Assembly (NCBI GenBank): GCA_025927545.1
Contig: JAICLE010000027.1
Location: 1 to 35,333 of the forward strand
Direction: 5' to 3'
DNA: 35,333 nucleotides
Origin: Gemmatimonadales bacterium
GTDB taxonomy: Bacteria; Gemmatimonadota; Gemmatimonadetes; Gemmatimonadales; GWC2-71-9
Shown here in pieces: positions 11,734 to 24,974 of this stretch. Numbering within the stretch: position 1 is the first letter of the stretch; every line of letters starts with the position of its first letter. The position numbers and the translations under genes are program-made. Below the pieces are notes generated by a model. That model was given only the letters and a program-made list of their open reading frames with translations, did no database searches and was not told where the DNA came from.

Positions 11734-12915
11734 CTACACCCGGCCGTCGAGAACCGCCACCACCCGCTCCATTTCTTCGAGCGTGTTGTATCCGTGCGGG
11801 CTCAGCCGGATGGCGCCCTCGCGCAGGCTGCAGATGATGCGCGCGGCCTTGAGCCGGCGGAAGGCGGCGCCGACATCGCCGGGCGCGAGGCAGAGGATGC
11901 CGGAGCCTCGCTCGCCCCGCGGCGAGACGATGCGGGCCCCGCTCCCCTCGGCCCAGGCCAGGACCGGCTCGTGCAGCCGCCGCAGGTGCGCCTGGATGCG
12001 CTCGATCCCCATTTCCCGCACCAGGCCGAGTGACGCGTTGAACCCCGCGAAGTCCTGGTAGGGGAGCGTGATCAGCTCGAATCGCCGCGCGTCGGCGCGG
12101 AGGGTCTCACTGTAGGTGGTGAGCCGGGTGAAATCGTCGGTGCCCTCGAAGGCCATCCAGCCGGTGACCGGCGGGCTCAATCGGGAGATCAGCTCGCGCC
12201 GGACATAGACGAACCCCGATCCCCAGGGCGACAGCAGCCATTTCTGTCCGCCGCAGGCCAGCACGTCCACCTGCGTGCGCCCCAGGTCCAGCGGGATCTG
12301 CCCCACGGCCTGGATCGCGTCCACCACGAGGTACGCCCCGGTGCGACGGGTCGCCGCGGAGAGCGCGGCCAGATCCACCCGGTAGCCGTTGCTGAACTGC
12401 ACCAGCGACACCGCCAGGACCCGCACCCGCGGGTCGGCCAGCCGCTCGAGGAGACGGGCCTCGTCGGGCCAGCCGGCGGCGGTCGTGGGCACCAGCTCGA
12501 CCTCGATCCCCAGCTCACGCAGGCGGAGCCAGGGGTAGACGTTGGCCGGGAACTCCCGATCGCTCAGCAGCACCACGTCGCCCGGGCGAAGCGGGAGCGC
12601 GCGCGCCACGACGCCGAGCCCGAAGCCGGTGTTGACCGTGAGCGCGATCTCCTCGGGCGTGACCGAGAGCAGCTCCGCCACGAGGCGGCGCGATTCCGCG
12701 AGCACGGCGAAGAGGTCCCGGTCGGGCAGTTGGAACGGCATCGCCCGCTGCCGGTTGAACTCGTCGAGCGCACGCCGGGTCCGCTCCGGCAGGGGGCCGA
12801 CGCTCGCGTGATTGAGGTAGACGGTCTGATCCGCCCAGGGAAACTCGTCCCGGCGGAGCGCCGCGCCGTCGAGGCTGCCCGGCACCGGCGGGGAGGCGGA
12901 CGATGCCGGGATCAT
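11734..12915 (-). CDS. Aminotransferase class V (PLP-dependent)
   Basis: The 393-residue protein has the class V fold-type I pattern. The start 'VYLNHASVGPLP' is the substrate-binding loop. 'LTVNTGFGLGVVARAL' forms the phosphate-binding region, 'YLVVDAIQAVGQIPLDL' carries the PLP-contacting Asp, and 'LACGGQKWLLSPWGSGF' carries the Schiff-base lysine, Lys225. It is closest in pattern to isopenicillin-N epimerase/cysteine-desulfurase-like enzymes, but it lacks a clear active-site loop Cys, so I do not assign NifS/SufS activity. Substrate is unknown. The ATG at 12915 follows the stop of the upstream permease gene by 4 bp, so the two are co-transcribed; 72 bp or more separate it from the downstream ATPase gene. 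Confidence 0.87.
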   Translation of the reverse strand: MIPASSASPPVPGSLDGAALRRDEFPWADQTVYLNHASVGPLPERTRRALDEFNRQRAMPFQLPDRDLFAVLAESRRLVAELLSVTPEEIALTVNTGFGLGVVARALPLRPGDVVLLSDREFPANVYPWLRLRELGIEVELVPTTAAGWPDEARLLERLADPRVRVLAVSLVQFSNGYRVDLAALSAATRRTGAYLVVDAIQAVGQIPLDLGRTQVDVLACGGQKWLLSPWGSGFVYVRRELISRLSPPVTGWMAFEGTDDFTRLTTYSETLRADARRFELITLPYQDFAGFNASLGLVREMGIERIQAHLRRLHEPVLAWAEGSGARIVSPRGERGSGILCLAPGDVGAAFRRLKAARIICSLREGAIRLSPHGYNTLEEMERVVAVLDGRV

Positions 12916-12919
12916 CGGC

Positions 12920-13765
12920 TCAGCGCTCGGTCCGGAGACGCGGGTCGTACGCTTCACGGAGGGCATCGCCCACCAGGTTGAAGCCGAGCACGGCGATGCC
13001 GATGGCGATGCCGGGCGCGAAGGAGACCCAGGGCGCGACGCGGAGCAGGTCCCGGCCGTCGGCCACCATGGCCCCCCAGCTCGGCGTCGGCGGCTGCGCG
13101 CCGAGGCCGATGAACGAGAGCGCCGCCTCCGCCATGATCGCGCCGGCGATGCCGAGCGTGGCGGCGATGATGACCTGTGTCCGCACATTGGGAAGGAGAT
13201 GTCGCAGCAGGACACGCCGGTCGAGCGCCCCGAGCGCCTGGGCGGCCAGCACGAACTCCGCGCGCCTCAGCACCAGCACCTGGCTCCGGACCAGCCGGGC
13301 CATGCCCGCCCAGCCGACCACGCCGATGACGAGGAAGATCACGGGAAGCGACGGCTTCACCGCGGCGGCCACCGCGATGAGCAGCAGGAGCGTGGGAAAG
13401 GCGAGGGTCACGTCGGCCAGGCGCATCACCAGCGTGTCCACCCAGCGGCCGTAGTACCCGGCCACGAGCCCCAGCACCACGCCGAGGGTCACGGCCACGG
13501 ACTGGGAGATGAGCCCCACGGAGAGCGACAGCCGGGCGCCATAGAGCACCCGGCTCAGCACGTCGCGTCCCTGGCTGTCGGTGCCCAGAAGAAACCGTCC
13601 TCCCGGCCCCAGCAGATACGCGTGCCGCAGGTCGCCTGTGAGCGGGTCGAACGGGGCGATCCACGGCGCGAGGATCGCCGCCGCGACCACGAGCCCGACG
13701 AGGGCAAGGCCAAGCTGGAAGAACCGGTCGCGCCGCAGGCGCTCTAGCAGCACCGCTCGAGCCAT
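12920..13765 (-). CDS. ABC transporter permease, DppC/OppC type
   Basis: The 281-residue inner-membrane permease matches the dipeptide/oligopeptide/nickel family. An N-terminal OppC_N helix ('LGLALVGLVVAAAILAPWIAPFDP') precedes 'LLGTDSQGRDVLSRVLYGARLSL', the hallmark of DppC-like subunits. About five more helices follow, with the ATPase-coupling EAA-like loop 'AEFVLAAQALGALDRRVLLRHLLPN'. It should pair with a DppB-like permease, ATPases and a binding protein, none of which are in the window, so this is an orphan subunit here. I chose the ATG at 13765, just before 'ARAVLLERLRRDRFF'; an in-frame start at 13813 would add 16 unconserved residues. It shares a 142-bp divergent region with the patatin gene. 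Confidence 0.88.
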   Translation of the reverse strand: MARAVLLERLRRDRFFQLGLALVGLVVAAAILAPWIAPFDPLTGDLRHAYLLGPGGRFLLGTDSQGRDVLSRVLYGARLSLSVGLISQSVAVTLGVVLGLVAGYYGRWVDTLVMRLADVTLAFPTLLLLIAVAAAVKPSLPVIFLVIGVVGWAGMARLVRSQVLVLRRAEFVLAAQALGALDRRVLLRHLLPNVRTQVIIAATLGIAGAIMAEAALSFIGLGAQPPTPSWGAMVADGRDLLRVAPWVSFAPGIAIGIAVLGFNLVGDALREAYDPRLRTER

Positions 13766-13907
13766 GGAGCGTCCGTGACGTGGGTTACCCTGGCGGGCGG
13801 CAGTCGCGCACACCGTTGCACCGTCGGCCGTCCCGGCGCGGGGCGCATGATTCTTGCAAATTCGACTGCGAGTACGTTACGCACCCCACCTCGGCCGGGG
13901 CAAGCGA

Positions 13908-14969
13908 GTGAATCCGGAACAACCCTTTACACTGGTGCTCAGCGGTGGCGGCCTCAAGGGGCTGGCCCACATCGGCGTCCTCCGGGCGCTCGAGGAGCGC
14001 GGGCTGGTGCCGAGCCTGGTGGTGGGGTCGAGCATCGGCTCCCTCATCGGCGCCGCGTGGGCCGCCAACTCGACGCCGGAGCGGATGGAGGCGCGGGCGC
14101 TCCGGGTTCGCCGCCGCGACGTGTTTCAGGTCGCGCGGGCTGACGTGGCCTTTCGTCGCCTCATGGCTCCGGCTCTCTATCGCGGCGAGCCGCTCGAGGC
14201 ACTGGTCAGGGATCTCGTGGGCGACGTCACCTTTCGCGACCTCACCCGGCGCCTGCTGGTCAACACCACGGATCTTCACTCCGGCATGCAGGTGATGTGG
14301 GGCCTCCCCGGGCTGAGCCACGCCCGCGTGGCCGACGCCGTCACCGCGTCCTGCGCGCTCCCCGGGATCTTCCCGCCCCGCGAGATCGACGGCCGGGCCT
14401 ACGTCGATGGCGCCGTCGTCGAAAACCTGCCAGTGCGGCTCGCCGCCTCGCTCGGCTCGGGACCGATCATCGCCGTCAACGTCGCGGCCACGAGCATTCG
14501 CCGCCAGGTGCACGAGACGGAGGGATTCGCGGCCACGTACATCCGCGGTCTCGAGATCGTGATGCAGACGCAGATCGAGGGACAGCTGCGCGACTGGAAA
14601 GGCCCCCCGCTCGTGCTGGTCCAGCCGCCGGTGGAGCACATCTCGATGTTCGCGTTCGACCGCACGGCCGAGCTCATCGACGCGGGGTACCGCGCCACCG
14701 CGCAGACGCTGGACCAGCTCGACGGCCGGCTGCACCTCATCGAGCGGGGGATGTACCCCACCCGCCGCCTGCGGGTCCTCGTGGATGAGCAGCGCTGTGT
14801 GGGGTGCGGCGCCTGCGTGGTGCAGGCGCCCAAGGTGTTCCGCCTGGATGCACGCGGGAAGGCCGAGGTGTTGACGCCGGTGCAGACCTGGTCGCCGCTC
14901 GAGGGCGCCTACGTGCTCAACTGCCCGACGGACGCGATCAGCGTGCGCCCGGAGGAGACGGCGGCGTGA
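13908..14969 (+). CDS. Patatin-like phospholipase fused to a 4Fe-4S ferredoxin domain
   Basis: The 353-residue protein has two parts. Residues 7-230 or so are an RssA-type patatin domain. The oxyanion loop is SGGGLKG (12-18), the nucleophile elbow is GSSIG with Ser42, and the dyad Asp167 lies in 'YVDGAVVEN'; this predicts a serine acyl hydrolase acting on lipids. Residues about 290-345 form a single-cluster ferredoxin: C297-x2-C300-x2-C303, then Cys339 followed by Pro, 36 residues later, the spacing of monocluster [4Fe-4S] ferredoxins. No frameshift is needed, so the fusion is real in this sequence. The GTG at 13908 gives the normal patatin N-terminus; an upstream TTGCAA (13854-13859) with TTACGC 17 nt on is a possible promoter. 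The 3' end overlaps the convergent methyltransferase gene by 32 bp. Confidence 0.9.
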   Translation: MNPEQPFTLVLSGGGLKGLAHIGVLRALEERGLVPSLVVGSSIGSLIGAAWAANSTPERMEARALRVRRRDVFQVARADVAFRRLMAPALYRGEPLEALVRDLVGDVTFRDLTRRLLVNTTDLHSGMQVMWGLPGLSHARVADAVTASCALPGIFPPREIDGRAYVDGAVVENLPVRLAASLGSGPIIAVNVAATSIRRQVHETEGFAATYIRGLEIVMQTQIEGQLRDWKGPPLVLVQPPVEHISMFAFDRTAELIDAGYRATAQTLDQLDGRLHLIERGMYPTRRLRVLVDEQRCVGCGACVVQAPKVFRLDARGKAEVLTPVQTWSPLEGAYVLNCPTDAISVRPEETAA

Positions 14970-15561
14970 CCTGGAAAACCAGCACCGCGTCGCCCTGCTG
15001 GCGCACCGGCAGCAGATTCCGGAGCGCACTCCGGTAGTAGCGGTGCAGCCGGACCCGGCCCCAGGGAGCCAGCGCCCGCCGGAGCAACGCCTCCTCGTAC
15101 GCCCCGCCTTCCACCAGCGTGGTCCCTACCACCGATCCGCCCGACGCGAGATAGCTCACCAGCTCGCCGATGAGGCCCGAGTCGTCCTCCACGTGCTCCA
15201 GCACGTCGGTGCAGTAGATCCGGTCGAACTGGCCGGGGCCGGGCGGCACGGTGGTGAACACCGGCCGCGCGGCGCTGCCGCGAAACCGCTTGGCCTGGGC
15301 GATCGCCGCGGGCGAGATGTCGTAGCCCACCGCCTCGCCGCCGAGCTGTTGCAGTCGCAGGGTGAAGATGCCATCCATGCAGCCGAAGTCGAGGACGCGC
15401 CGGCCTTCCGGCGAGTAGCGGCGAAGCAGCGCCCGGTCGCCCCAGGAGAGGTGGGTGAGGCGCCAGTCGAGATCGAACACCTTCGGCCCCTGCTGCCCGG
15501 CCCAGGCCTGATACTGGCGATCGTACTCCTCGACGGGCGAGGTGAAGGGCGCAGCCATCAT
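14938..15561 (-). CDS. SAM-dependent methyltransferase (class I)
   Basis: The 207-residue protein shows the Rossmann-type SAM-binding order: motif I 'RVLDFGCMDGIFTLRLQQLGG', motif II with the acidic residue in 'VGYDISPAAIAQAK', then 'FDRIYCTDVLEHVED', the post-motif typical of UbiE/Methyltransf_11 enzymes. No substrate domain is evident. It is the last gene of a minus-strand run of glycosyltransferases, and its ATG overlaps the TGA of the preceding GT4 gene, so it probably decorates the same glycan or its lipid carrier. That role is inferred from context only. The last 32 bp overlap the 3' end of the convergent patatin-ferredoxin gene. Confidence 0.88.
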   Translation of the reverse strand: MMAAPFTSPVEEYDRQYQAWAGQQGPKVFDLDWRLTHLSWGDRALLRRYSPEGRRVLDFGCMDGIFTLRLQQLGGEAVGYDISPAAIAQAKRFRGSAARPVFTTVPPGPGQFDRIYCTDVLEHVEDDSGLIGELVSYLASGGSVVGTTLVEGGAYEEALLRRALAPWGRVRLHRYYRSALRNLLPVRQQGDAVLVFQVTPPSPPGAR

Positions 15562-16751
15562 CCGGCGGTCTGCGCGGCCGGCGCGCCGAGCTCGTGCCCC
15601 ATCCGCACCAGATCGCGGGTGACCCGGTCCCAGTTGTAGTGGGTCTCGACGGCCCGGCGGCCCGCGGCGCCCAGCCTGGCCCGGAGCTCGTCGTCATCGA
15701 GCAGCCGCGCCACGGCCCCGGCCACGTCGTCCGCGCGCTCCGCATCAACCAGCAGTCCGGTTTCCCCGTCCCGCACCGCGGCGGGGATGCCGCCGCTCCG
15801 GCCCGCGACCACCGGCACCCCGCACGCCGAGGCTTCGGCCAGCGCGATGCCGAACCCCTCGACCCGCTGTGGCATCAGCCGCGACACGCCGAGGTAGACC
15901 TCGGCACTGTTGTAGAGCGCCGGCAGATCGTCGTCGGGGACGCCGGTGAGGAAGCGCGTCCGGTCGGCGACGCCGAGTGCGCGGGCCTCCTGCTCGAGCG
16001 CTGCCTGCTCCTCGCCGCTTCCCACCACCGCGTAGCGGAGCGTCGGGTAGCGGCTTGCGAGCCGCGCGAGCGCCTGGAGCCCGGTGTCGATGCCCTTGTG
16101 CCGGGTGAGCCGCGCGACGGACAAGAGCCAGCGCCCCTCCTCCAGGCCGTGGCGCTCCCGAACGGCGCGGGTGTCCACGCCGGGCCGGAAGAACTCGTGA
16201 TCGGCGCCGAGCGGGACGACGCGCACCCGGTCGGACGGTGCGTCGATCTCGAGCTCGTTCAGGAGCGCGAGGCACCGGTCGCGGGTCCAGTCGCTGTTGG
16301 CCACCAGCACGGCGGCCGCGGAGAGCAGCGCGGCGGCGGTCTTCCGCTTGATGGCCGACTGATGTACCTGATGCTGCAGGATGAGCAGATCGCCGCCGTG
16401 GAGCAGGATGCCGAACGGCGTGCCGGTGCGCTCCCGGGTCCACTTGGCCGGGTAGGCCGCGGGCTTGATGTTGCCGCACCAGATGAATTCGGCGTCGGTG
16501 GAACGCGCGAGCACCGCAACGCGGCGGGACCAGAGCAGGATGCCCTGCAGCGTGCGCAGTCGGGGCGAGGAGATGGCGAGCCGGTCCACCCGATTGGGGA
16601 AGGTGGCGTCGCTCGCGGAGGTGTCGCCGACCTGCCCGGTGGAGACCACCAGCGAGCCGGGTGGATAGCGTCGGGCGAGCTCGGCCATCCAGCGCGCGAT
16701 CCCGCCGCCGATCGGCGGGAAATCGTACGTGAGCAGCAGGTGGGGCAGCAT
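15558..16751 (-). CDS. Glycosyltransferase family 4
   Basis: The 397-residue GT-B enzyme has an N-terminal acceptor domain with 'LLLTYDFPPIGGGIARWMAEL', a glycine-rich loop found in GT4 enzymes. Its C-terminal donor domain carries 'LLSVARLTRHKGIDT' and the nucleotide-sugar binding E-x7-E region 'EGFGIALAEASACGVPVV'. It retains anomeric configuration and uses a nucleotide-activated sugar; specificity is unknown. It is clearly paralogous over its whole length to the next upstream gene (16761-17972), with shared 'CGN(I/L)KPAAYPA', 'RTFLTGVPD'-like and 'YNWDRV' segments, so this is a tandem duplication. The ATG follows the upstream TAA by 9 nt with no Shine-Dalgarno. Confidence 0.93.
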   Translation of the reverse strand: MLPHLLLTYDFPPIGGGIARWMAELARRYPPGSLVVSTGQVGDTSASDATFPNRVDRLAISSPRLRTLQGILLWSRRVAVLARSTDAEFIWCGNIKPAAYPAKWTRERTGTPFGILLHGGDLLILQHQVHQSAIKRKTAAALLSAAAVLVANSDWTRDRCLALLNELEIDAPSDRVRVVPLGADHEFFRPGVDTRAVRERHGLEEGRWLLSVARLTRHKGIDTGLQALARLASRYPTLRYAVVGSGEEQAALEQEARALGVADRTRFLTGVPDDDLPALYNSAEVYLGVSRLMPQRVEGFGIALAEASACGVPVVAGRSGGIPAAVRDGETGLLVDAERADDVAGAVARLLDDDELRARLGAAGRRAVETHYNWDRVTRDLVRMGHELGAPAAQTAG

Positions 16752-16757
16752 GGGGGC

Positions 16758-16763
16758 AATTTA
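16758..16763 (-). promoter_or_regulatory. -10-like TAAATT before GT4 gene
   Basis: On the minus strand, TAAATT ends 6 nt before the ATG at 16751, and its TAA is also the stop codon of the preceding gene. It could be an internal leaderless promoter or part of a junction motif shared with two other gene boundaries. Confidence 0.4.
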
Positions 16764-17972
16764 ACGTGCGTTGCGGAAGTTGCTGAGCTCGGCTGCGTGC
16801 CGCTCGGCGACCTCGCGTCCGATTCCGATGACCTCCGCCGCAACCCGATCCCAGTTGTAGTACGACTCCACGGCCGCCCGTCCGCCGGCGCCCATTCGGA
16901 GCGCCAGCTCCCGATCCCGCAGCAACAGCCGCACGGCCGCGAGCACGCATTCGACGCTCGCGCCGTCCACGAGCATCCCCGTCTCACCGTCGCGCACGGC
17001 GTCCGGCATACCTCCACCCGAGCCGCCGATCACCGGCAGTCCGCAGGCGGACGCCTCGCTGAGCGCGATCCCGAACCCTTCCACCATGAGCTCCGCCGGC
17101 CGCGACACGCCGAGATAGAGCTCGGCGCTATTGTAGAGCGCCGGCAGATCGCCGTCGGGGACGCCGGTGAGGAAGCGCACCCGGTCGCCCACGCCGAGCC
17201 GGCGAGCCAGCCGCTCGAGCTCCTCCCGCTGGACGCCGGAGCCGACCACGGCGTAGCGCAGCTCGGGAACTTCTTCGCGCAGTGCCGCGAGGACATGGAG
17301 GACGGTGTCGATGCCCTTGTGGGCCGCGAGGCGCGCGACGGTGAGCAGCCATCGCCCGGGCTCGAGACCGTACCGGGCCCGCACTTCGGCCGGATCGATG
17401 CCGGGGCGGAACCGGGTGGGATCGGTGCCGAGCGGGAGCATGCGGATGTCGCTGGCGTCCGGGTCGATGCCCAGCCCGGCCAGCACTTCGCGGCAGAGCG
17501 CGGCCGTCCACCGGCTCACCGTCACGAGCACGGCGGCATGGCCCAGCAGCCAGCGCCCGGCGATCCGTTTGCGCGGCTTCTTCTTCAACCGGTGGCGCAG
17601 CAGCAGCAACTCGGTGCCATGGAGAAAAATGCCGTGGGGGATGCCGCTCCGCCGGCTGACCCAGTGCGCGGGGTAGGCCGCGGGCTTGAGATTGCCGCAC
17701 CACATGAACTCCGGCTGAAGCGCGCGGGCGAGAACGGCGGCGCGCCGACACCAGGGAATCCAGCCGTGGATTGCGCGCAGGCGGCGGCTCGCGATCGGCA
17801 TCCGGTCTATGGGGTGGGGAAACCGCGCGTCGGCGTCCTCGCTTCCCGTGACGGAACCGGTCGAGACGACCAGAGATCCCCGCGGATAGCGCCGCGCCAC
17901 CTCGCCCATCATCCTGGAGATCCCGCCGCCCATGGGAGGAAAGTCGTAGGTGAGCAGCAGGTGACCGCGCAT
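16761..17972 (-). CDS. Glycosyltransferase family 4 (paralogue of 15558-16751)
   Basis: The 403-residue GT-B enzyme starts 'MRGHLLLTYDFPPMGGGISRMMGE' and carries the donor-site block 'LLTVARLAAHKGIDT', 'FLTGVPDGDLPALYNS' and 'VEGFGIALSEASACGLPV'. The conserved Glu pair expected for retaining GT4 enzymes is present. It aligns end to end with the downstream gene, including the C-terminal 'YYNWDRV', so both arose by duplication and have since diverged; they may add successive sugars. Start choice: the ATG at 17972 matches the paralogue's N-terminus, and the long open frame further upstream overlaps another gene. Only 8 bp separate it from the stop of the preceding gene. Confidence 0.93.
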   Translation of the reverse strand: MRGHLLLTYDFPPMGGGISRMMGEVARRYPRGSLVVSTGSVTGSEDADARFPHPIDRMPIASRRLRAIHGWIPWCRRAAVLARALQPEFMWCGNLKPAAYPAHWVSRRSGIPHGIFLHGTELLLLRHRLKKKPRKRIAGRWLLGHAAVLVTVSRWTAALCREVLAGLGIDPDASDIRMLPLGTDPTRFRPGIDPAEVRARYGLEPGRWLLTVARLAAHKGIDTVLHVLAALREEVPELRYAVVGSGVQREELERLARRLGVGDRVRFLTGVPDGDLPALYNSAELYLGVSRPAELMVEGFGIALSEASACGLPVIGGSGGGMPDAVRDGETGMLVDGASVECVLAAVRLLLRDRELALRMGAGGRAAVESYYNWDRVAAEVIGIGREVAERHAAELSNFRNAR

Positions 17973-17977
17973 GCGGC

Positions 17978-17983
17978 AATCTA
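17978..17983 (-). promoter_or_regulatory. -10-like TAGATT before GT4 gene
   Basis: On the minus strand, TAGATT ends 5 nt before the ATG at 17972, and its TAG is the stop codon of the preceding gene. A -35 was not recognised, so this is a weak promoter call. Confidence 0.35.
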
Positions 17984-18949
17984 CCGGAGCAGGTCCTGGA
18001 GCGATGGCAGGAACCGGCCGCCGGCGGCTCCGATCGTGAGGTCCCGAACCAGCGCCGGATCGGCGGCCGGTGCGTCGAGCGCCGCGTCGATGGCCCGGGC
18101 AAGCGCGGCGTCGTCGTCCACCGGCACCAGCCGTGCGGCCCGGCCCACGTGCTCGCGATGCGGCGGAATGTCGCTCGCGACCACCGGTACGCCCGCGGCG
18201 ACCGCCTCGATCGGGGTGAGCCCGAACCCCTCGAACCGGCTCGGGCACACGGCCACCGCGGCCTCATGGTATGCGCGCGTGACGGCCGCATCGTCCGCGG
18301 TGGTCTCGACCCGGCAGCGCACTCCCAGCGCCGCCGCGAGCTGCTCGAGCCGCACCTGTTCCGGTCCGCGGCCGATGAGTCGGACCTGCACCGGGCGCCG
18401 GAGCGCGGCGGCAGCGCGCAGCACGGCCGCCTGGTTCTTGTGCGGGATCAGACGCGACACGGTGACGAGCAGCGGCGGCGACGCCTTGTCCCCCGGCCCC
18501 GGCGCGAAACGCCCGGAGTCGTAGCAGTACGGCACCAACGCGGACCGGACGCCGAAGCGCTCGGCGACGATCTCCCGCGTCATGCAGCTCGGCACCAGCA
18601 CGGCGTCAGCCCGCCGCGCCAGATACTGGAGCCGACTGTAGTAGCCGCGGCGCCGGGCAAAGCCGCCCCAGGGGCGCGGCAGGCGGAGGAAGTGGCCGGC
18701 CAGCCACCAGACCGGGTCGGCGCGGCCGCGCGCGGTGCCCACCGGAGGCAAGTCCCACAGGTAGAGGACAAGCCGCGAGCGGTGTGCTCGCGCGAACCGC
18801 CACGCCGCCTCCGCCCGGAGCCCCGACATGGCCAGCGCGATCCGCGCCGGCGCAGCGCCCTCGGTCGAGATCGTAAGCCCGAGCCGGCGGAGCTCGGGCA
18901 CGATGAGCGCGCCGTACGGATTGGGCGCGAACCAGCGGACGTCATCCAC
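17981..18949 (-). CDS. Glycosyltransferase family 4
   Basis: The 322-residue protein is a GT-B glycosyltransferase with a short acceptor domain containing 'VLYLWDLPPVG' and a canonical C-terminal donor domain: 'LLVTVSRLIPHKNQAAVLRAAA', 'RLIGRGPEQVRLE', and 'CPSRFEGFGLTPIEAVAAGVPVVASDIPPHREHV', the GT4 E-x7-E region. Sugar and acceptor are unknown. I set the start at the GTG at 18949 because upstream in-frame codons lie inside the preceding gene and read as low-complexity shadow sequence; the 8-bp overlap with that gene's stop implies translational coupling. It is one of four consecutive minus-strand GT4 genes. Confidence 0.9.
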   Translation of the reverse strand: MDDVRWFAPNPYGALIVPELRRLGLTISTEGAAPARIALAMSGLRAEAAWRFARAHRSRLVLYLWDLPPVGTARGRADPVWWLAGHFLRLPRPWGGFARRRGYYSRLQYLARRADAVLVPSCMTREIVAERFGVRSALVPYCYDSGRFAPGPGDKASPPLLVTVSRLIPHKNQAAVLRAAAALRRPVQVRLIGRGPEQVRLEQLAAALGVRCRVETTADDAAVTRAYHEAAVAVCPSRFEGFGLTPIEAVAAGVPVVASDIPPHREHVGRAARLVPVDDDAALARAIDAALDAPAADPALVRDLTIGAAGGRFLPSLQDLLR

Positions 18950-20042
18950 TGCCGCCGAGCACCTCCGCGAGCGCCTGCTCGTAGTCGCCCACCATGCGCT
19001 CGAGGGGGAACTCCGTCTCGATGCGCCGCCGGGCGGCCTCACCGAGGGCGCGGCGGCGGTCGGGGTCGGCGAACAGACCGCTCACCGCCTCGGCCAGCGC
19101 GCCCGGATCGGCGGGTGGGACGAGCACGCCGGTGGTGCCGTCCCGTCCGAGCAGCTCGCCGGTGCCGCCGGCGTCGGCGGCGACGACCGGGCGCGCACAC
19201 GCCATCGCCTCGCCCACGGCATTCGGAAAGATTTCCTGGAGCGAGGGATGCACGACGAGATCGGCCGCACTGTAGGCGCCGATCATGTCGCGGGAGCCAA
19301 GCAGGCCGGTGAAGACGGCGGGCAGGCCGCAGGCACGCGCCATGGAGACGAGCTCGCCCTCGCGTCCGCCGTCGCCGCAGAGGACGTAGACCAGGTCGAG
19401 CCCCTCCCGGCGCACGCGGGTGAGTGCCGCGATCGCCACCTCCTGCCCCTTGTTGCGCGTCAGCTTCGCGGCGCTCAGGACCACCCGCGCCGACGATGGG
19501 ATCCGGTAGCGCTGCCGGAACGCGCTCGCCGCGTCCGGACGCGGCGCAAAGCGGACGGTGTCGTAGCCGTTGGGGATCTGGTACGAGGGGATCCGGGCCA
19601 TCCAGCCCGCGTGCCGCACCGCGTCGTCACGGATGTAGCGCGACTGATAGATGCAGGCCGCGAGCCGGCTGAGATACACCCGATCCATCAGGTGGATGCG
19701 GGGGCGGCGGTAGTTCAGGTTGTAGCGGTAGACGATACGCGCGCGGTGCAGCAGCGTGGCGTAGAACGAGAGGCGTACGTCACGGGGAGTGTCGACGATG
19801 ATCGCCCGCGCGCCGACCCGGGCCAGCGCGCGGCGAAGCGCGAGGACCTCCCGGGCTCCCGTGTTGCGACCGGGGATCTGGGTGACGGGCAGCCCCTCCT
19901 CGCGCAATCGGCTCGTCAGCTTGGCGGCCGCGGTGACGAGATGGGCCTCGTGGCCGTGCTGGCGCAGCCCGAGCGCGATCTTGGCGTAGCTCGCGCCCGA
20001 GCCGCGCCAGCCGTTGGCCGACGTCAGCAGGGCGACGCGCAT
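18942..20042 (-). CDS. Glycosyltransferase family 4
   Basis: The 366-residue GT-B enzyme is first in the minus-strand run of four GT4 genes and a methyltransferase. Its N-terminus is 'MRVALLTSANGWRGSGASYAKIALGLRQHGHE', with the Gly/Ser-rich acceptor loop. The donor domain holds 'VVLSAAKLTRNKGQEVAIAAL', 'CGDGGREGELVSMA', and 'HPSLQEIFPNAVGEAMACARPVVAADAGGTGELL'. The Glu-containing loop is the sugar-nucleotide site. Substrate cannot be told. Its ATG is 20 bp from the ATG of the divergent CgeB-like gene, and the two share an overlapping -10 region, so it probably drives the whole five-gene minus-strand operon from that site. Confidence 0.93.
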   Translation of the reverse strand: MRVALLTSANGWRGSGASYAKIALGLRQHGHEAHLVTAAAKLTSRLREEGLPVTQIPGRNTGAREVLALRRALARVGARAIIVDTPRDVRLSFYATLLHRARIVYRYNLNYRRPRIHLMDRVYLSRLAACIYQSRYIRDDAVRHAGWMARIPSYQIPNGYDTVRFAPRPDAASAFRQRYRIPSSARVVLSAAKLTRNKGQEVAIAALTRVRREGLDLVYVLCGDGGREGELVSMARACGLPAVFTGLLGSRDMIGAYSAADLVVHPSLQEIFPNAVGEAMACARPVVAADAGGTGELLGRDGTTGVLVPPADPGALAEAVSGLFADPDRRRALGEAARRRIETEFPLERMVGDYEQALAEVLGGSG

Positions 20043-20048
20043 GGGTCC

Positions 20049-20054
20049 GTTATA
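20049..20054 (-). promoter_or_regulatory. -10 TATAAC of GT4 operon (leaderless)
   Basis: On the minus strand TATAAC is followed by 6 nt and the ATG at 20042. It shares four bases with the plus-strand TATACT of the divergent gene. No clear -35 was seen. Confidence 0.55.
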
Positions 20055-20056
20055 CT
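20051..20056 (+). promoter_or_regulatory. -10 TATACT of CgeB-like gene (leaderless)
   Basis: TATACT is followed by 6 nt and the ATG at 20063, matching five of six consensus -10 bases. It overlaps the opposing -10 within GTTATACTT. The entire intergenic region is 20 bp, so both -35 regions would lie inside the opposite coding sequences. Confidence 0.55.
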
Positions 20057-20062
20057 TGGCGC

Positions 20063-21085
20063 ATGCGAGTGGCCGTGCTCGGAGCGGGTGGGGCCCACAG
20101 GACGGAGGCGTCGATCGTGCGCGCGGCGCGCGCGCTGGGGCACGAGTGCCGGCTGGTGAACGTGGTCGGCTGGTCGCGCCGCCTCGGCCCGCTGGCCGGC
20201 CGCGCGGTCCGCTATCTCGCCGACGCGTTCGCGCCGGATTTCGTCGTGCTCACCCGTCATGCCATCCTCGCCGGTGAGCCCGCTCTGCGCGCGGTGCTGC
20301 GCGGACGCAAGCGGGTGTTCTGGTACTTCGATCTGCAACCGAAACCGGCGGTCCTCGCGCTGGCGCGCGTGACGGACCGGATGGCGGTCACGGGCGCCAG
20401 CCATGTGGAGGTCTTCCGCGCCGCCGGCATCCCGGTCGTCCAGTTCGTTCCGCAAGGTGTCGATCCGATGCGCGACGTTCCGGCTGCCACCGCCCGCGCC
20501 GGCGACGTCTGTGATCTCAGCTTCGTGGGCTCCGGCCAGTACCCCCACCGCTACCGCGTGCTGCGCGCCGTTACCGCGGCGGGCCGGCTTCAGATCCGTG
20601 GCCCCGGTTGGGAGCACGCACCGCCCGACCTGCCGGTGGCCGGCGGCCCGGTGTACGGTCGCCGCCTGGCCCAGGTCATCCGTGGCGCCGCCATCTCGCT
20701 CGGCGCCCATGCGTTCGCGGAGCAGGACGGCGGGCGTGCCTCCGCCTCGAACCGCATGTGGAAGATTTTTGGCTGTGGCGGATTCTACCTCGGTCCCTGG
20801 GTCGAGGACATGGACTGCTTTGCCGTGGGGGGGCGGCACTGCGCCTGGCACCGCTCGCCCGCGGAGGCAGCGGAGCTCGCGCGGCATTATCTCGATCGTC
20901 CCGAGGAGCGCGCCCGGGTCGCGGCCGACGGCCGGGCGCACGCGCTCCGGCATCATACCTACCGGGACCGGCTCGAGCTGCTGTTGACCGGACGGGAGTA
21001 CGAGCTCGTGCGTCCCATATCAGACCATGGTGTAGTTGCGGAACTCGAACGGCCGGATGCCGGTCACCCGCTCGATCGCGCCTGA
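20063..21085 (+). CDS. CgeB-like glycosyltransferase
   Basis: The 340-residue protein resembles the CgeB/'spore maturation protein' branch of GT-B glycosyltransferases. The N-terminal half has 'MRVAVLGAGGAHRTEASIVRAARALGHE' and 'VFWYFDLQPKP' (the family's Tyr/Trp-Asp segment). The C-terminal half has 'FVPQGVDP', 'SFVGSGQYPHRYRVL', 'GGRASASNRMWKIFGCGGFYLGPWVEDM', and the closing 'HTYRDRLELLL', typical of Glyco_trans_1_2 domains. Such enzymes act in surface or spore-coat glycosylation; specificity is unknown. It is a lone plus-strand gene between two minus-strand operons. Its last 66 bp overlap the convergent GT2 gene, and those final 20 or so residues look unconserved. Confidence 0.85.
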   Translation: MRVAVLGAGGAHRTEASIVRAARALGHECRLVNVVGWSRRLGPLAGRAVRYLADAFAPDFVVLTRHAILAGEPALRAVLRGRKRVFWYFDLQPKPAVLALARVTDRMAVTGASHVEVFRAAGIPVVQFVPQGVDPMRDVPAATARAGDVCDLSFVGSGQYPHRYRVLRAVTAAGRLQIRGPGWEHAPPDLPVAGGPVYGRRLAQVIRGAAISLGAHAFAEQDGGRASASNRMWKIFGCGGFYLGPWVEDMDCFAVGGRHCAWHRSPAEAAELARHYLDRPEERARVAADGRAHALRHHTYRDRLELLLTGREYELVRPISDHGVVAELERPDAGHPLDRA

Positions 21086-21883
21086 CGCATAGTAGCGCAG
21101 AAAGCTCCAGTGGAACCGCCGCGGCGCGATCACGCGCTCGGGATCGAGCCGCCGCGGCGCGATCCACTCTCGCGCGACGGCCGGATGGGTCCCCCGGAAC
21201 GACTGGATGCCCGGCACCCACGCGAGCAGCGGCTGGCGTTCATCGGCCGTGCGCCAGGGGTACATGGTCTTTCCCAGCTCGCGCTTTTCCCGAAGCGCCT
21301 GGGCCGGGCGTGCCCAGCCGTAGTGGAACATCTCGGCATCGGTAAGCCGCGCCCGGATCTTCCGGTGCCCGGGCCCCACGCGGAAACCCTGGGCTCCCTG
21401 ATACGGCAGAATGTCGAGCGTCGGGTCCAGTCGGACCGCCCGCACCTCACGCCGATACCAGCGGCGGTGGGTGGCGATCGTATCGAACCCGCCGTAGAAA
21501 TGGAGATAGCGCACCAGCAGCCCCTCCACCCGCGGGTCGCCGTCGTAGCGCTGGATGGCAGCCGCGAGCGCCTCCGCCCCGCGCTCGTGCAGCACTTCGT
21601 CTGCCTGGATGTAGATGCCCCACGGGTGGGCACAGGCGCGCATGGCGCGGAGCGTCTCGTGCCCGAGCACGGTGTTGCGCCGGCTCATGTCCCACTCGGT
21701 CTCGAGGATCCGGATCCGGGGATCGGCGATCGAGCGCACCAGATCGAGCGTCGCGTCTTCCGACCGTCCGGCGTTGACGACCACCTCGTCGCACACCGGC
21801 AGGATCGATCGGATGCTGGCCTCCACCGGGAAGTCCAGCTTGATCGCGTTCCTGACGATGGTGAACCCGGAGACCTTGACCAT
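21020..21883 (-). CDS. Glycosyltransferase family 2
   Basis: The 287-residue GT-A enzyme begins 'VSGFTIVRNAIKLDFPVEASIRSILPVCDEVVVNAGRSEDAT', the usual GT2 donor-binding start with Asp residues. It continues to 'HPWGIYIQADEVLHERGAEAL', where 'QADE' replaces the common DxD metal site. This pattern is typical of the GT2 branch annotated as 'glycosyltransferase family 2, WaaE/KdtX-like', which adds sugars to lipopolysaccharide cores. No membrane helix is visible. It is the second gene of a two-gene minus operon behind the GT4 gene at 21893; the ATG lies 9 nt after that gene's TGA. Its 3' end overlaps the convergent CgeB-like gene by 66 bp. Confidence 0.9.
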   Translation of the reverse strand: MVKVSGFTIVRNAIKLDFPVEASIRSILPVCDEVVVNAGRSEDATLDLVRSIADPRIRILETEWDMSRRNTVLGHETLRAMRACAHPWGIYIQADEVLHERGAEALAAAIQRYDGDPRVEGLLVRYLHFYGGFDTIATHRRWYRREVRAVRLDPTLDILPYQGAQGFRVGPGHRKIRARLTDAEMFHYGWARPAQALREKRELGKTMYPWRTADERQPLLAWVPGIQSFRGTHPAVAREWIAPRRLDPERVIAPRRFHWSFLRYYASGAIERVTGIRPFEFRNYTMV

Positions 21884-21892
21884 GCGGCAATC

Positions 21893-22987
21893 TCACCGCG
21901 GCCTTGGGCCGAGAGCAAGCGCGCGGTAGAGGCCGAGCGTGCGCCGGATGGTGTGCTCGAGCGCGAACTTCTCACGCGCCGTGTGTCGGGCGGCGTCGCC
22001 CAGGCGGAGCGCCAGATCCGGATCGGCGAGCAGTCGCTCGATGGCCGAGGCCCACCCGGCGGGATCGAGCGGCGGGACCAGCAGGCCGTCGGCTTCGGGG
22101 GTCACCAGATCCAGATTGCCCGCCGCCGCCGAGGCGATCACCGGCTTCGCGAGCGCCATCGCCTCCAGCAGCGATTGCGACAGGCCTTCCCCGCGCGAGG
22201 GGAGCAGGACGAGGTCGAGCAGCTCGTAGAGCGGCCGGATGCCGGGTGCGAACGGCACGCACACCGCGGCGTGCGGCCAAGGCACCTCGCGCGCCAACGC
22301 GCCCAGCGTGCCTGCAGGCTCGACCCCGGCCAGCACGAGACGCACCGGAGTGCGCACCCGCGCCAGCGCCGCGAGCACCACGGCCTGGTCCTTGGGCCGG
22401 GCGACGATGCCGATGGTCCGCTGCTCCGGCGTCCAGCCGATCCGCTCGCGCCAGTGCTCCACGCCGGCAGGATCCACCGGGACGTCCACCCGCTCCGTCA
22501 CCAGGCCGTTGGGAATCACGACGAGCTTCCGCGCCGGCGTCCCGCGCCGCCGCAACGCGCCGGCGACGGCCCCGCTCACGGCGACCACCCGCGCGGCGGC
22601 GCGGGACGAGAGCCAGTTCTCCAGGACGAAGGTGCGCGGCATCTGGCGCCTGGTCAGCACCAGTGGCGCGGGCAGCGCGCCGCACAGGGCGAGCCAGGTG
22701 AGCGCCTGCCGGTCACGAGCGCTCTGGGAGTTGATGAGCTCGACCGGATGCCGCGCGAGCAGCTCGGCCAACGCGGCCGCATTGGCCCGACGCTCGCCCG
22801 GGCGGAGGTCCAGCGGGTGGACCTCGAGCCCGCCCGCCCGGGCGAGTGCCTCCACCTCGGAGTGCGGCGGGCACGCGAAGCGCACCGCCACGCCCGCCCG
22901 CTGCAGGCCGAGCGAGAGGTGGAGGGTCGAGGTGACGGAGCCGGCGCCGCCGCCTTGATGGAGGACGTGGAGCACGCGCATGGTCAT
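21893..22987 (-). CDS. Glycosyltransferase family 4
   Basis: The 364-residue GT-B enzyme begins 'MRVLHVLHQGGGAGSVTSTLHLSLGLQRAGVAVRFACPP', a GT4 acceptor domain with the Gly-rich loop. The donor domain has 'VVIPNGL', 'IGIVARPKDQAVVLAALARV', and 'LLPSRGEGLSQSLLEAMALAKPVIASAAAGNLDLV' containing the E-x7-E residues. Two ATG codons (22987 and 22981) are possible starts; the second aligns better with relatives. It is the first gene of a pair with the GT2 gene. It is divergent from the GT4 gene at 23022, separated by 34 bp. Substrate is unknown; context implies the same surface glycan as the neighbouring genes. Confidence 0.92.
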   Translation of the reverse strand: MTMRVLHVLHQGGGAGSVTSTLHLSLGLQRAGVAVRFACPPHSEVEALARAGGLEVHPLDLRPGERRANAAALAELLARHPVELINSQSARDRQALTWLALCGALPAPLVLTRRQMPRTFVLENWLSSRAAARVVAVSGAVAGALRRRGTPARKLVVIPNGLVTERVDVPVDPAGVEHWRERIGWTPEQRTIGIVARPKDQAVVLAALARVRTPVRLVLAGVEPAGTLGALAREVPWPHAAVCVPFAPGIRPLYELLDLVLLPSRGEGLSQSLLEAMALAKPVIASAAAGNLDLVTPEADGLLVPPLDPAGWASAIERLLADPDLALRLGDAARHTAREKFALEHTIRRTLGLYRALALGPRPR

Positions 22988-23006
22988 GGGGCGGGAGGAA
23001 GATGCC

Positions 23007-23012
23007 TAGATT
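23007..23012 (+). promoter_or_regulatory. -10-like TAGATT before GT4 gene
   Basis: TAGATT ends 9 nt before the ATG at 23022. A purine-rich GGGAGGAAG lies further upstream but is too far to serve this ATG as a ribosome site, so a leaderless or nearly leaderless mRNA is likely. Confidence 0.4.
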
Positions 23013-23021
23013 CCTCTCCCC

Positions 23022-23966
23022 ATGCACATCGCACTGTTCGTCCGCGACCGCCTGCCGGTGCGGAAATACGGAGGCACACAGCGGATCGCGGTCTACCTGG
23101 CGCGCGGGCTGGCCGACGCGGGCCACCGGGTGACGCTGATCGCCGGCGAGGGCTCGCACGTCCCGGAGGCGACGCTCGTCCCGCTCACACGGGCGCAGCG
23201 GCGCGATGCGGCGCTCGATCTCCGGCCACTCCTCCCGGGAGGGGTCGACCTGCTGCTCTCCTACGGGCCGCTCGCCGGCTCGCCCGGGATTCCGTGGATC
23301 CGCAGCCTGCATGGGAACGGGAAGCCGGGCGCGGCGCGCGCCGCCAACACGCTGTACCTGAGCCGGAACCACGCCGAGCGCCACGGCGGCACCGCCTTCG
23401 TGTACAACGGCATCGACCTGGGCGAGTTCCGCTTCCGGCGCGACAAGGCCGGCTACGATCTGTTCCTGGGGCGGCTGCACGGCGTGAAGGGCCATCGCTG
23501 GGCAATCGAGGGCGCGCGTCGCACGGGACACCGGCTCGTGCTCGCGGGCGGATGGCGGCCGTCGTTGAGCCGCGGTGTCCGCTACGCAGGCGAGGTCGGT
23601 GGCGAGCGCAAGGCCGAGCTCCTGGCCGGTGCGGAGTGCCTCTGGATGCCCGCGCTGTGGGACGAGCCGTTCGGCCTCACGCTCATCGAAGCGATGGCGA
23701 GCGGCACGCCGGTGCTCGGCACCCGTCGCGGGGCGCTGCCGGAAATCGTGACGCCGGACGTCGGCGCGCTGGGCGATACCGTGGACGAGCTGGTGGCGCT
23801 CCGGGCGGGGCTCGCCCGGAGCGAGCCCGACGCGTGCCGGGCACGAGTCGAGCGCTGGTTCAGCCATCACGTGATGGCGGAGGGCTACGTGCGGATGTTC
23901 CGGGAGTTTCTGGCGACTGGGCGATTACCGCCGGGGAGGACAGTCAGTGAGCGGGAGTCAGCCTGA
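23022..23966 (+). CDS. Glycosyltransferase family 4 (short)
   Basis: At 314 residues this is shorter than the usual 350-400 of GT4. The N-terminus 'MHIALFVRDRLPVRKYGGTQRIAVYLARGLADAGH' is the canonical GGT(E/Q) acceptor loop. The donor domain follows 'VYNGIDLGEF' with 'LFLGRLHGVKGHRWAIEGAR', 'GEVGGERKAELLAGAECLWMPALWDEPFGLTLIEAMASGTPV' and a final 'EGYVRMFREF'. The E-x7-E is intact, so the short length reflects a compact acceptor domain rather than truncation. It resembles GT4 enzymes acting in UDP-sugar-dependent surface polysaccharide synthesis. It is alone on the plus strand, and its 3' end overlaps the convergent CgeB-like gene by 9 bp. Confidence 0.9.
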   Translation: MHIALFVRDRLPVRKYGGTQRIAVYLARGLADAGHRVTLIAGEGSHVPEATLVPLTRAQRRDAALDLRPLLPGGVDLLLSYGPLAGSPGIPWIRSLHGNGKPGAARAANTLYLSRNHAERHGGTAFVYNGIDLGEFRFRRDKAGYDLFLGRLHGVKGHRWAIEGARRTGHRLVLAGGWRPSLSRGVRYAGEVGGERKAELLAGAECLWMPALWDEPFGLTLIEAMASGTPVLGTRRGALPEIVTPDVGALGDTVDELVALRAGLARSEPDACRARVERWFSHHVMAEGYVRMFREFLATGRLPPGRTVSERESA

Positions 23967-24974
23967 CTCGCCCCACCCGCCCGACATCGCAGGCTGCCCC
24001 ACCATCGTGGCGAGGAGCGCCGAGAGCCGGTGCATGTAGGTGTGCTCGCTCAGCGCCCGCTGCCGCCCGCCGGACGCCACCTGTTCGGCCCACGCCCGGT
24101 CGTGAATGGCTTCGGCGGTCAGGGAGCGCAGGTCGGTCGCGGTCCGCGCCACCAGAATCTCCGAGCCTTCGCGGAAATGCCGGTGCAGGTCGGGATGCTC
24201 CTCGGCCACTTGGGGAACCCCGATGGCCGCGAGCTCGAACAGCCGGCGGCTCGCACCCAGCTCGCCACTCCCGCTCCCCGCCTCGGCGCAGGGCACGTTG
24301 ACCGCCACGGATGCGCCGGCGTAGGCACGGATGTAGTCCTCGTGGGCCAGCAGCTCGCCCCGGCAGTAGTCCCTGAGCTTCGTCCGCCGCCAGCCCGGCC
24401 CCCAGACCGCCACGCCGAACTCCACCAACTCCGAGAGCTGCCGCTCGCGGTGCGGCGTGGCGGTGCCGGCAAACACCACGTTGGCGCGGAAGCGGTCGCG
24501 GGCACGCATCGGCCGGTGGATGGAGGGATCGCAGCCGGCCGGCAGATAATGCACCGGCGGGAAGCCCGGCGTGTCGAGCGCCTCGGCCGTGGCACTGTCG
24601 GCCACGAAGACGGCATCGTAGGCGGCCGCGCGCGGGGCGATATCCTCCGCCGACCGGCGCGCGTCGCAGAACCAGTTGGCCCAGGTGGGACCGCCGCCGT
24701 GGCGGAGCGCGGCCACCATCACGGCGTCCACCTGCGTCCCCTCGAGGACCAGCACCAGCGCCGGCGTCGTGCCGGCGATCGCGCGCGCGATCCGGTCGTG
24801 GAGGCCAACCCGGCGGAACCGGCTGAGCCAGCCGCCGGTGCCGATCAGGTTGAGCGTGGCCACCCGGCAGCCGAGCCGCTCGAGCGCGCGCCGGCGGAGC
24901 GCCGCGTGCGCGTGAAGCGCGTCATCGAATGCGCCGATCAGAAGTATGCGAGTGTCGGGAAATCGGGTCGCCAC
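23958..24974 (-). CDS. CgeB-like glycosyltransferase
   Basis: The 338-residue GT-B protein is in the same CgeB branch as the gene at 20063. The evidence is 'TRILLIGAFDDALHAHAALRRRALERLG', 'TWANWFCDARR' (matching the Trp/Tyr-Asp segment), 'YDAVFVADSATAEAL', 'VHYLPAGCDPSIHRP', 'NVVFAGTATPHRERQLSEL', and 'GASRRLFELAAIGVPQVAEEHPDLHRHF'. It likely uses a nucleotide sugar; acceptor unknown. The start is a GTG at 24974 preceded by TAGTTT and 7 nt, with no Shine-Dalgarno. A 54-bp gap separates it from the exporter gene upstream on the same strand, so it may be transcribed both from that operon and from its own promoter. Confidence 0.84.
   Translation of the reverse strand: MATRFPDTRILLIGAFDDALHAHAALRRRALERLGCRVATLNLIGTGGWLSRFRRVGLHDRIARAIAGTTPALVLVLEGTQVDAVMVAALRHGGGPTWANWFCDARRSAEDIAPRAAAYDAVFVADSATAEALDTPGFPPVHYLPAGCDPSIHRPMRARDRFRANVVFAGTATPHRERQLSELVEFGVAVWGPGWRRTKLRDYCRGELLAHEDYIRAYAGASVAVNVPCAEAGSGSGELGASRRLFELAAIGVPQVAEEHPDLHRHFREGSEILVARTATDLRSLTAEAIHDRAWAEQVASGGRQRALSEHTYMHRLSALLATMVGQPAMSGGWGESG

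Follow-up and report, generated by a model that had tools for sequence, protein, structure and literature searches.

The window analysed here is a 35,333-nucleotide stretch of DNA from a MAG of 3.48 Mb in 181 contigs, assigned to the bacterial order Gemmatimonadales. It contains a single unbroken reading frame (13908-14969, forward strand) that runs from a GTG start to a TGA stop and joins a patatin-like phospholipase to a small ferredoxin. The gene, its parts and its immediate neighbours are as follows.

11734-12900, reverse strand: class V aminotransferase, cysteine-desulfurase-like, scoring below the SufS cut-off and all curated cut-offs
12920-13813, reverse strand: OppC-type ABC permease (BPD_transp_1), divergent, 94 bp from the start of the fusion gene and placed likewise in several relatives
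13908-14969, forward strand: patatin-ferredoxin fusion gene, 353 amino acids, frame kept in 62 of the 81 Gemmatimonadales genomes
13932-14444, forward strand: patatin domain, residues 9-179 (Pfam PF01734); the patatin fold reaches approximately residue 271, and the predicted fold matches PlpD (5fya)
13941-13961, forward strand: oxyanion loop SGGGLKG, residues 12-18, read from the sequence and near-invariant in the family
14031-14033, forward strand: codon of the nucleophile Ser42 (G-S-S-I-G), invariant in 45 of 45 aligned proteins
14406-14408, forward strand: codon of Asp167, the dyad aspartate of the DG motif, invariant in 45 of 45 aligned proteins
14721-14759, forward strand: interdomain linker, residues 272-284, defined by alignment and ending in the invariant Pro284
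14775-14945, forward strand: single-cluster ferredoxin domain, residues 290-346, with Cys297, Cys300, Cys303 and Cys339 (Fer4_15, Fer4_13; fold match to 1vjw)
14938-15561, reverse strand: SAM methyltransferase, convergent, its 3′ end overlapping that of the fusion gene by 32 bp

In the family to which the window belongs, the fusion gene is solitary, with unrelated genes on either side. In families f1 and f3 the class V aminotransferase is conserved beside the fusion gene. Farther along the window, positions 15558-24974 are occupied by a long series of glycosyltransferase-like genes on either strand, the first of which was matched by profile; this region is probably a surface polysaccharide cluster.

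A first-pass annotation of these letters had described one uninterrupted frame that links a complete patatin domain to the cysteine pattern of a monocluster [4Fe-4S] ferredoxin, and each of the residues it named is found exactly where it was placed. The patatin profile PF01734 matches residues 9-179 with an E-value of 1.8e-37 (129.9 bits against a gathering score of 27.7), and the protein carries the motifs G13-G14-G15-x-K17-G18, G40-x-S42-x-G44 and D167-G168, so that profile and intact dyad both identify a patatin-like phospholipase. Residues 290-346 are matched by Fer4_15 (4.4e-9) and Fer4_13 (4.6e-8). Both matches exceed their gathering scores (37.3 versus 22.4 and 34.1 versus 24.5 bits), and the cluster motif C297-x2-C300-x2-C303-x35-C339-P340 provides the CxxCxxC...CP signature of a monocluster [4Fe-4S] ferredoxin. 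On these grounds the fusion protein is predicted to have lipid acyl hydrolase activity, and we infer that it binds a [4Fe-4S] cluster.

The GTG at 13908 fits the starts of relatives in the alignment. A start inside the frame that would yield a free ferredoxin was considered and rejected, since residue 282 is V, I, M or L across homologues and no start is conserved. Sequence searches of the PDB return PlpD as the nearest relative of the patatin part (5.7e-32) and the Thermotoga maritima ferredoxin as that of the ferredoxin part (6.7e-8), and no single chain there matches both. An AlphaFold2 model built on a 45-row alignment has a mean pLDDT of 89.7 and a pTM of 0.88, with most of the ferredoxin region above 80. 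When this model was searched with Foldseek, the same two relatives were recovered: PlpD (5fya; TM by target 0.86, 30% identity) and T. maritima ferredoxin (1vjw; TM by target 0.87, 46% identity over 59 columns).

Genome comparisons were made within Gemmatimonadota, using 81 genomes of the order Gemmatimonadales and 298 genomes sampled across the phylum. Full-length fusions with the same frame and domain order are present in 62 of the 81, and these are 40-89% identical over their whole length (39-89% in the 45 that were aligned). An assembly chimera or frameshift was rejected because the architecture recurs in these genomes and in several single-contig genomes (G055, G070, G114, G161). Among the matches listed from the 298 phylum genomes there are approximately 126 full-length fusions, all in three Gemmatimonadales families. 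Other orders of the class have only unfused patatins, whose listed matches end at approximately residues 270-277 with 35-41% identity; one other-order match reads through stop codons to residue 299. Some Gemmatimonadales genomes lack the whole fusion gene. The query also matches 130 plasmid records, where none of the matches listed covers the ferredoxin and the furthest ends at residue 298, and no relative of the fusion protein was found on the viral contigs searched. The fusion may occur outside Gemmatimonadota, where only weak searches were made.

Conservation extends through both halves of the protein. Across 45 aligned fused proteins S42, D167, C297, C300, C303 and C339 never vary, the Patatin profile matches all 45, and Fer4_15 matches 42. 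Two outcomes named beforehand as damaging to the idea of a genuine fusion, homologues that end before residue 290 beside a separate ferredoxin gene and variation at all four cysteines, are thus contradicted: full-length homologues abound, no separate gene was found in the relatives searched, and the four cysteines are invariant. In nine near-relative comparisons dN/dS is 0.04-0.16 for the ferredoxin part versus 0.10-0.20 for the patatin part, so purifying selection on the former, as judged from these ratios, is at least as strong as on the latter. C149 in the patatin domain is also invariant in fused proteins, but it is common in unfused ones and therefore not specific to the fusion. Fused ferredoxins additionally conserve W328-S329-P330 (14889-14897; W in 93%, S in 91% and P in 78%) ahead of the fourth cysteine. 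This triplet is absent from four free ferredoxins that were aligned, and it is a possible domain interface. Together these comparisons confirm the patatin-ferredoxin fusion as an old, conserved feature of the order Gemmatimonadales.

Phylogenetic analysis of the patatin part indicates how the fusion arose. In an unrooted tree the fused proteins form one group (97/91), separate from the sister-order patatins and from the second patatins of Gemmatimonadales, both of which are unfused; with outgroup patatins added the fused proteins form one clade (99/97). Within the genomes sampled, the sequences thus point to a single origin. Two proteins inside the fused clade stop just past the patatin domain: that of G029, which shares 70% identity with the window protein, and that of G031, which shares 48%. 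Downstream of the patatin there is a reverse-strand region in one of these genomes and, as judged by eye, two apparent tRNA genes in the other. Neither locus has a ferredoxin remnant in its downstream DNA, and a search of the two genomes recovered no comparable free ferredoxin. These two loci (L082 and L083) are natural truncations in which the patatin was kept and the ferredoxin cleanly lost, two independent times. The simplest account is that the domain was gained once, in the ancestor of Gemmatimonadales, and lost twice, and that some genomes shed the gene entirely.

The gene contexts of relatives differ from one family to another. In family f2 (L044-L061), 16 of 19 loci have the aconitase gene acnA 3′ of the fusion gene and in the same orientation, and in nine loci the AcnA match begins approximately 0-200 bp from the fusion. 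This linkage is limited to that family. A few kilobases further downstream, f2 loci carry a YegS/DAGK-type lipid kinase (seven loci) and a peroxiredoxin (11 loci), the latter with a signal-like N-terminus. At 13 of 17 loci in families f4, f5 and f6, divergently oriented suf genes (sufC-sufB-sufD-sufS) adjoin the closest unfused patatin. The suf-adjacent patatins are those of L076, L077, L079, L080, L081, L105, L106 and L108-L113, and across several families of sister orders they tie a lipid hydrolase to Fe-S assembly genes in a conserved arrangement. They were rejected as orthologues of the fusion, because the rooted tree groups them with the unfused paralogues of Gemmatimonadales (97/91).

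What the ferredoxin does for the hydrolase can be approached from the chemistry of each. Patatin hydrolysis requires no electrons, and the cluster is therefore not a catalytic requirement. Moreover, the ferredoxin was lost twice while the hydrolase was kept, which implies that the hydrolase can work without it and that the ferredoxin is accessory. We tentatively suggest that it acts as an accessory switch by which redox or Fe-S status controls a cytosolic lipid acyl hydrolase, a reading that we regard as quite possible, if short of probable. The host enzyme would be a cytosolic serine hydrolase of the RssA/PlpD patatin type that uses the Ser42-Asp167 dyad and has no signal peptide, to whose C-terminus the ancestor of Gemmatimonadales added one [4Fe-4S] ferredoxin domain. 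A cluster assembled in that domain could, on being changed or lost, alter the packing of the patatin domain against the ferredoxin domain. Such repacking might change access to the active site or binding to the membrane, and phospholipid or lysophospholipid turnover would thereby track oxidative or iron stress. The position of acnA directly downstream in family f2 is consistent with this switch, as AcnA is itself an Fe-S enzyme, and the lipid kinase and peroxiredoxin often present beyond it also speak in its favour. The redox-controlled lipase raised in the first-pass annotation is in this light a hypothesis with indirect support. However, the linkage is missing from the family of the window, and ferredoxin folds usually carry electrons rather than sense.

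Electron carriage is the basis of another explanation, in which the patatin carries the ferredoxin to the membrane or frees an acyl chain and the ferredoxin passes electrons to a separate lipid-modifying oxidoreductase, much as the C-terminal ferredoxin serves the P450 in a bacterial CYP51-ferredoxin fusion. True electron-transfer ferredoxins (T. maritima, Desulfovibrio) are the nearest relatives of the domain, which is also similar to the ferredoxin portion of the CYP51 fusion 6mcw, and four invariant cysteines fit a working redox centre. Suitable partners are nevertheless scarce. Of ten genomes sampled in the window's genus, all of which carry the fusion, none has a P450, and a fatty-acid desaturase was detected in only two; these genomes are 81-98% complete, and the incompleteness of MAGs limits such claims of absence. 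Across the order, only 17 of 81 genomes have a P450. A general role as P450 donor is out on the evidence of the ten genomes, and neither P450s, absent from that genus, nor desaturases, rare in it, were retained as a general electron acceptor. The earlier suggestion that the hydrolase delivers its product to a redox partner is accordingly weakened for the usual partners. Furthermore, the only conserved oxidoreductase neighbour is the peroxiredoxin, aconitase not being a redox enzyme, and the ferredoxin was lost twice while the hydrolase stayed. This explanation seems to us rather unlikely. We give much the same low weight to the idea that the ferredoxin is a structural or binding module that provides stability, oligomerisation or contacts with membrane or protein, with neither redox change nor electron transfer mattering in vivo. 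Structural Fe-S clusters do exist in enzymes without redox chemistry, W328-S329-P330 could be an interface, and the pTM of the model is high (0.88). However, a purely structural cluster would not require a full ferredoxin domain with such resemblance to free ferredoxins, and two relatives manage without the domain.

Two further explanations fare less well. That the ferredoxin might report Fe-S assembly status specifically, through a link to SUF, is brought to mind by the suf-divergent patatins of f4, f5 and f6, but we consider it very improbable: the tree places those patatins with unfused paralogues outside the fused clade, and the fused genes that were examined have no suf genes nearby. Least credible is a degenerate cluster site or a functionless passenger. 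In its favour are the loss of the ferredoxin in two lineages and the lack of the gene in several genomes of the order. Yet the cysteines are unchanged in all 45 proteins across 39-89% identity, the ferredoxin part evolves with the low dN/dS given above, and the fusion is retained in three families, so that conservation largely refutes this reading. The absence of P450s from the ten genomes of the genus, the two ferredoxin losses and the aconitase gene downstream in f2 lead us to favour the redox or Fe-S-status switch over both electron delivery and a structural role.

The domain architecture is real and conserved, each half coming from a well-known family in a combination that is apparently undescribed. 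No description of a patatin-ferredoxin fusion, nor of any lipid acyl hydrolase with a built-in ferredoxin domain, was found in the literature searched. This agrees with the first-pass annotation, to whose author the pairing was unfamiliar; sequence databases beyond Gemmatimonadota were searched weakly. Fe-S clusters control transcription factors and some enzymes. It is conceivable, with slightly less assurance than we attach to the switch itself, that the fusion represents a new form of phospholipase regulation, in which the redox or assembly state of the attached ferredoxin switches the patatin and couples the turnover of membrane lipids to iron or oxidative stress throughout the order. If such coupling is real, membrane lipid turnover in a soil phylum with cultured strains would be directly linked to redox or iron state, and a single protein would offer a simple, testable system.

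Several known systems share parts of this design. RssA/PlpD-type patatins (PF01734; NF007623) have the same G-G-G-x-K-G loop, G-x-S-x-G motif and DG motif, but the fusion protein is not RssA proper (NF007623, 114.2 bits against a cut-off of 272), and whereas PlpD has a secretion barrel, the fusion protein lacks one and has the extra C-terminal ferredoxin. Monocluster ferredoxins such as those of T. maritima (1vjw) and Desulfovibrio (Fd I) have the CxxCxxC...CP pattern and fold in common with it, although they stand alone, while the domain described here is joined to a hydrolase and carries W-S-P before its fourth cysteine. It is also distinct from [3Fe-4S] ferredoxins of the P450 type, in which the second cysteine of CxxCxxC is replaced, because C300 is invariant. 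The CBASS effectors CapV and CapE likewise place an extra regulatory part over a hydrolase of patatin fold, but they are switched on by cyclic nucleotides, unlike the cluster control proposed here. Identity with a CBASS patatin effector was rejected (NF041079, 71.8 bits where the cut-off is 200), and no cyclase (CD-NTase) gene was seen beside the window gene, whose profiled neighbours are an ABC permease, an aminotransferase, a methyltransferase and a glycosyltransferase. The nearest functional analogy is the CYP51-ferredoxin fusion (6mcw, 7snm), likewise a lipid-acting enzyme with a C-terminal single-cluster ferredoxin. There, however, the host is a P450 that consumes the electrons, whereas here it is predicted to be a hydrolase with no need of them.
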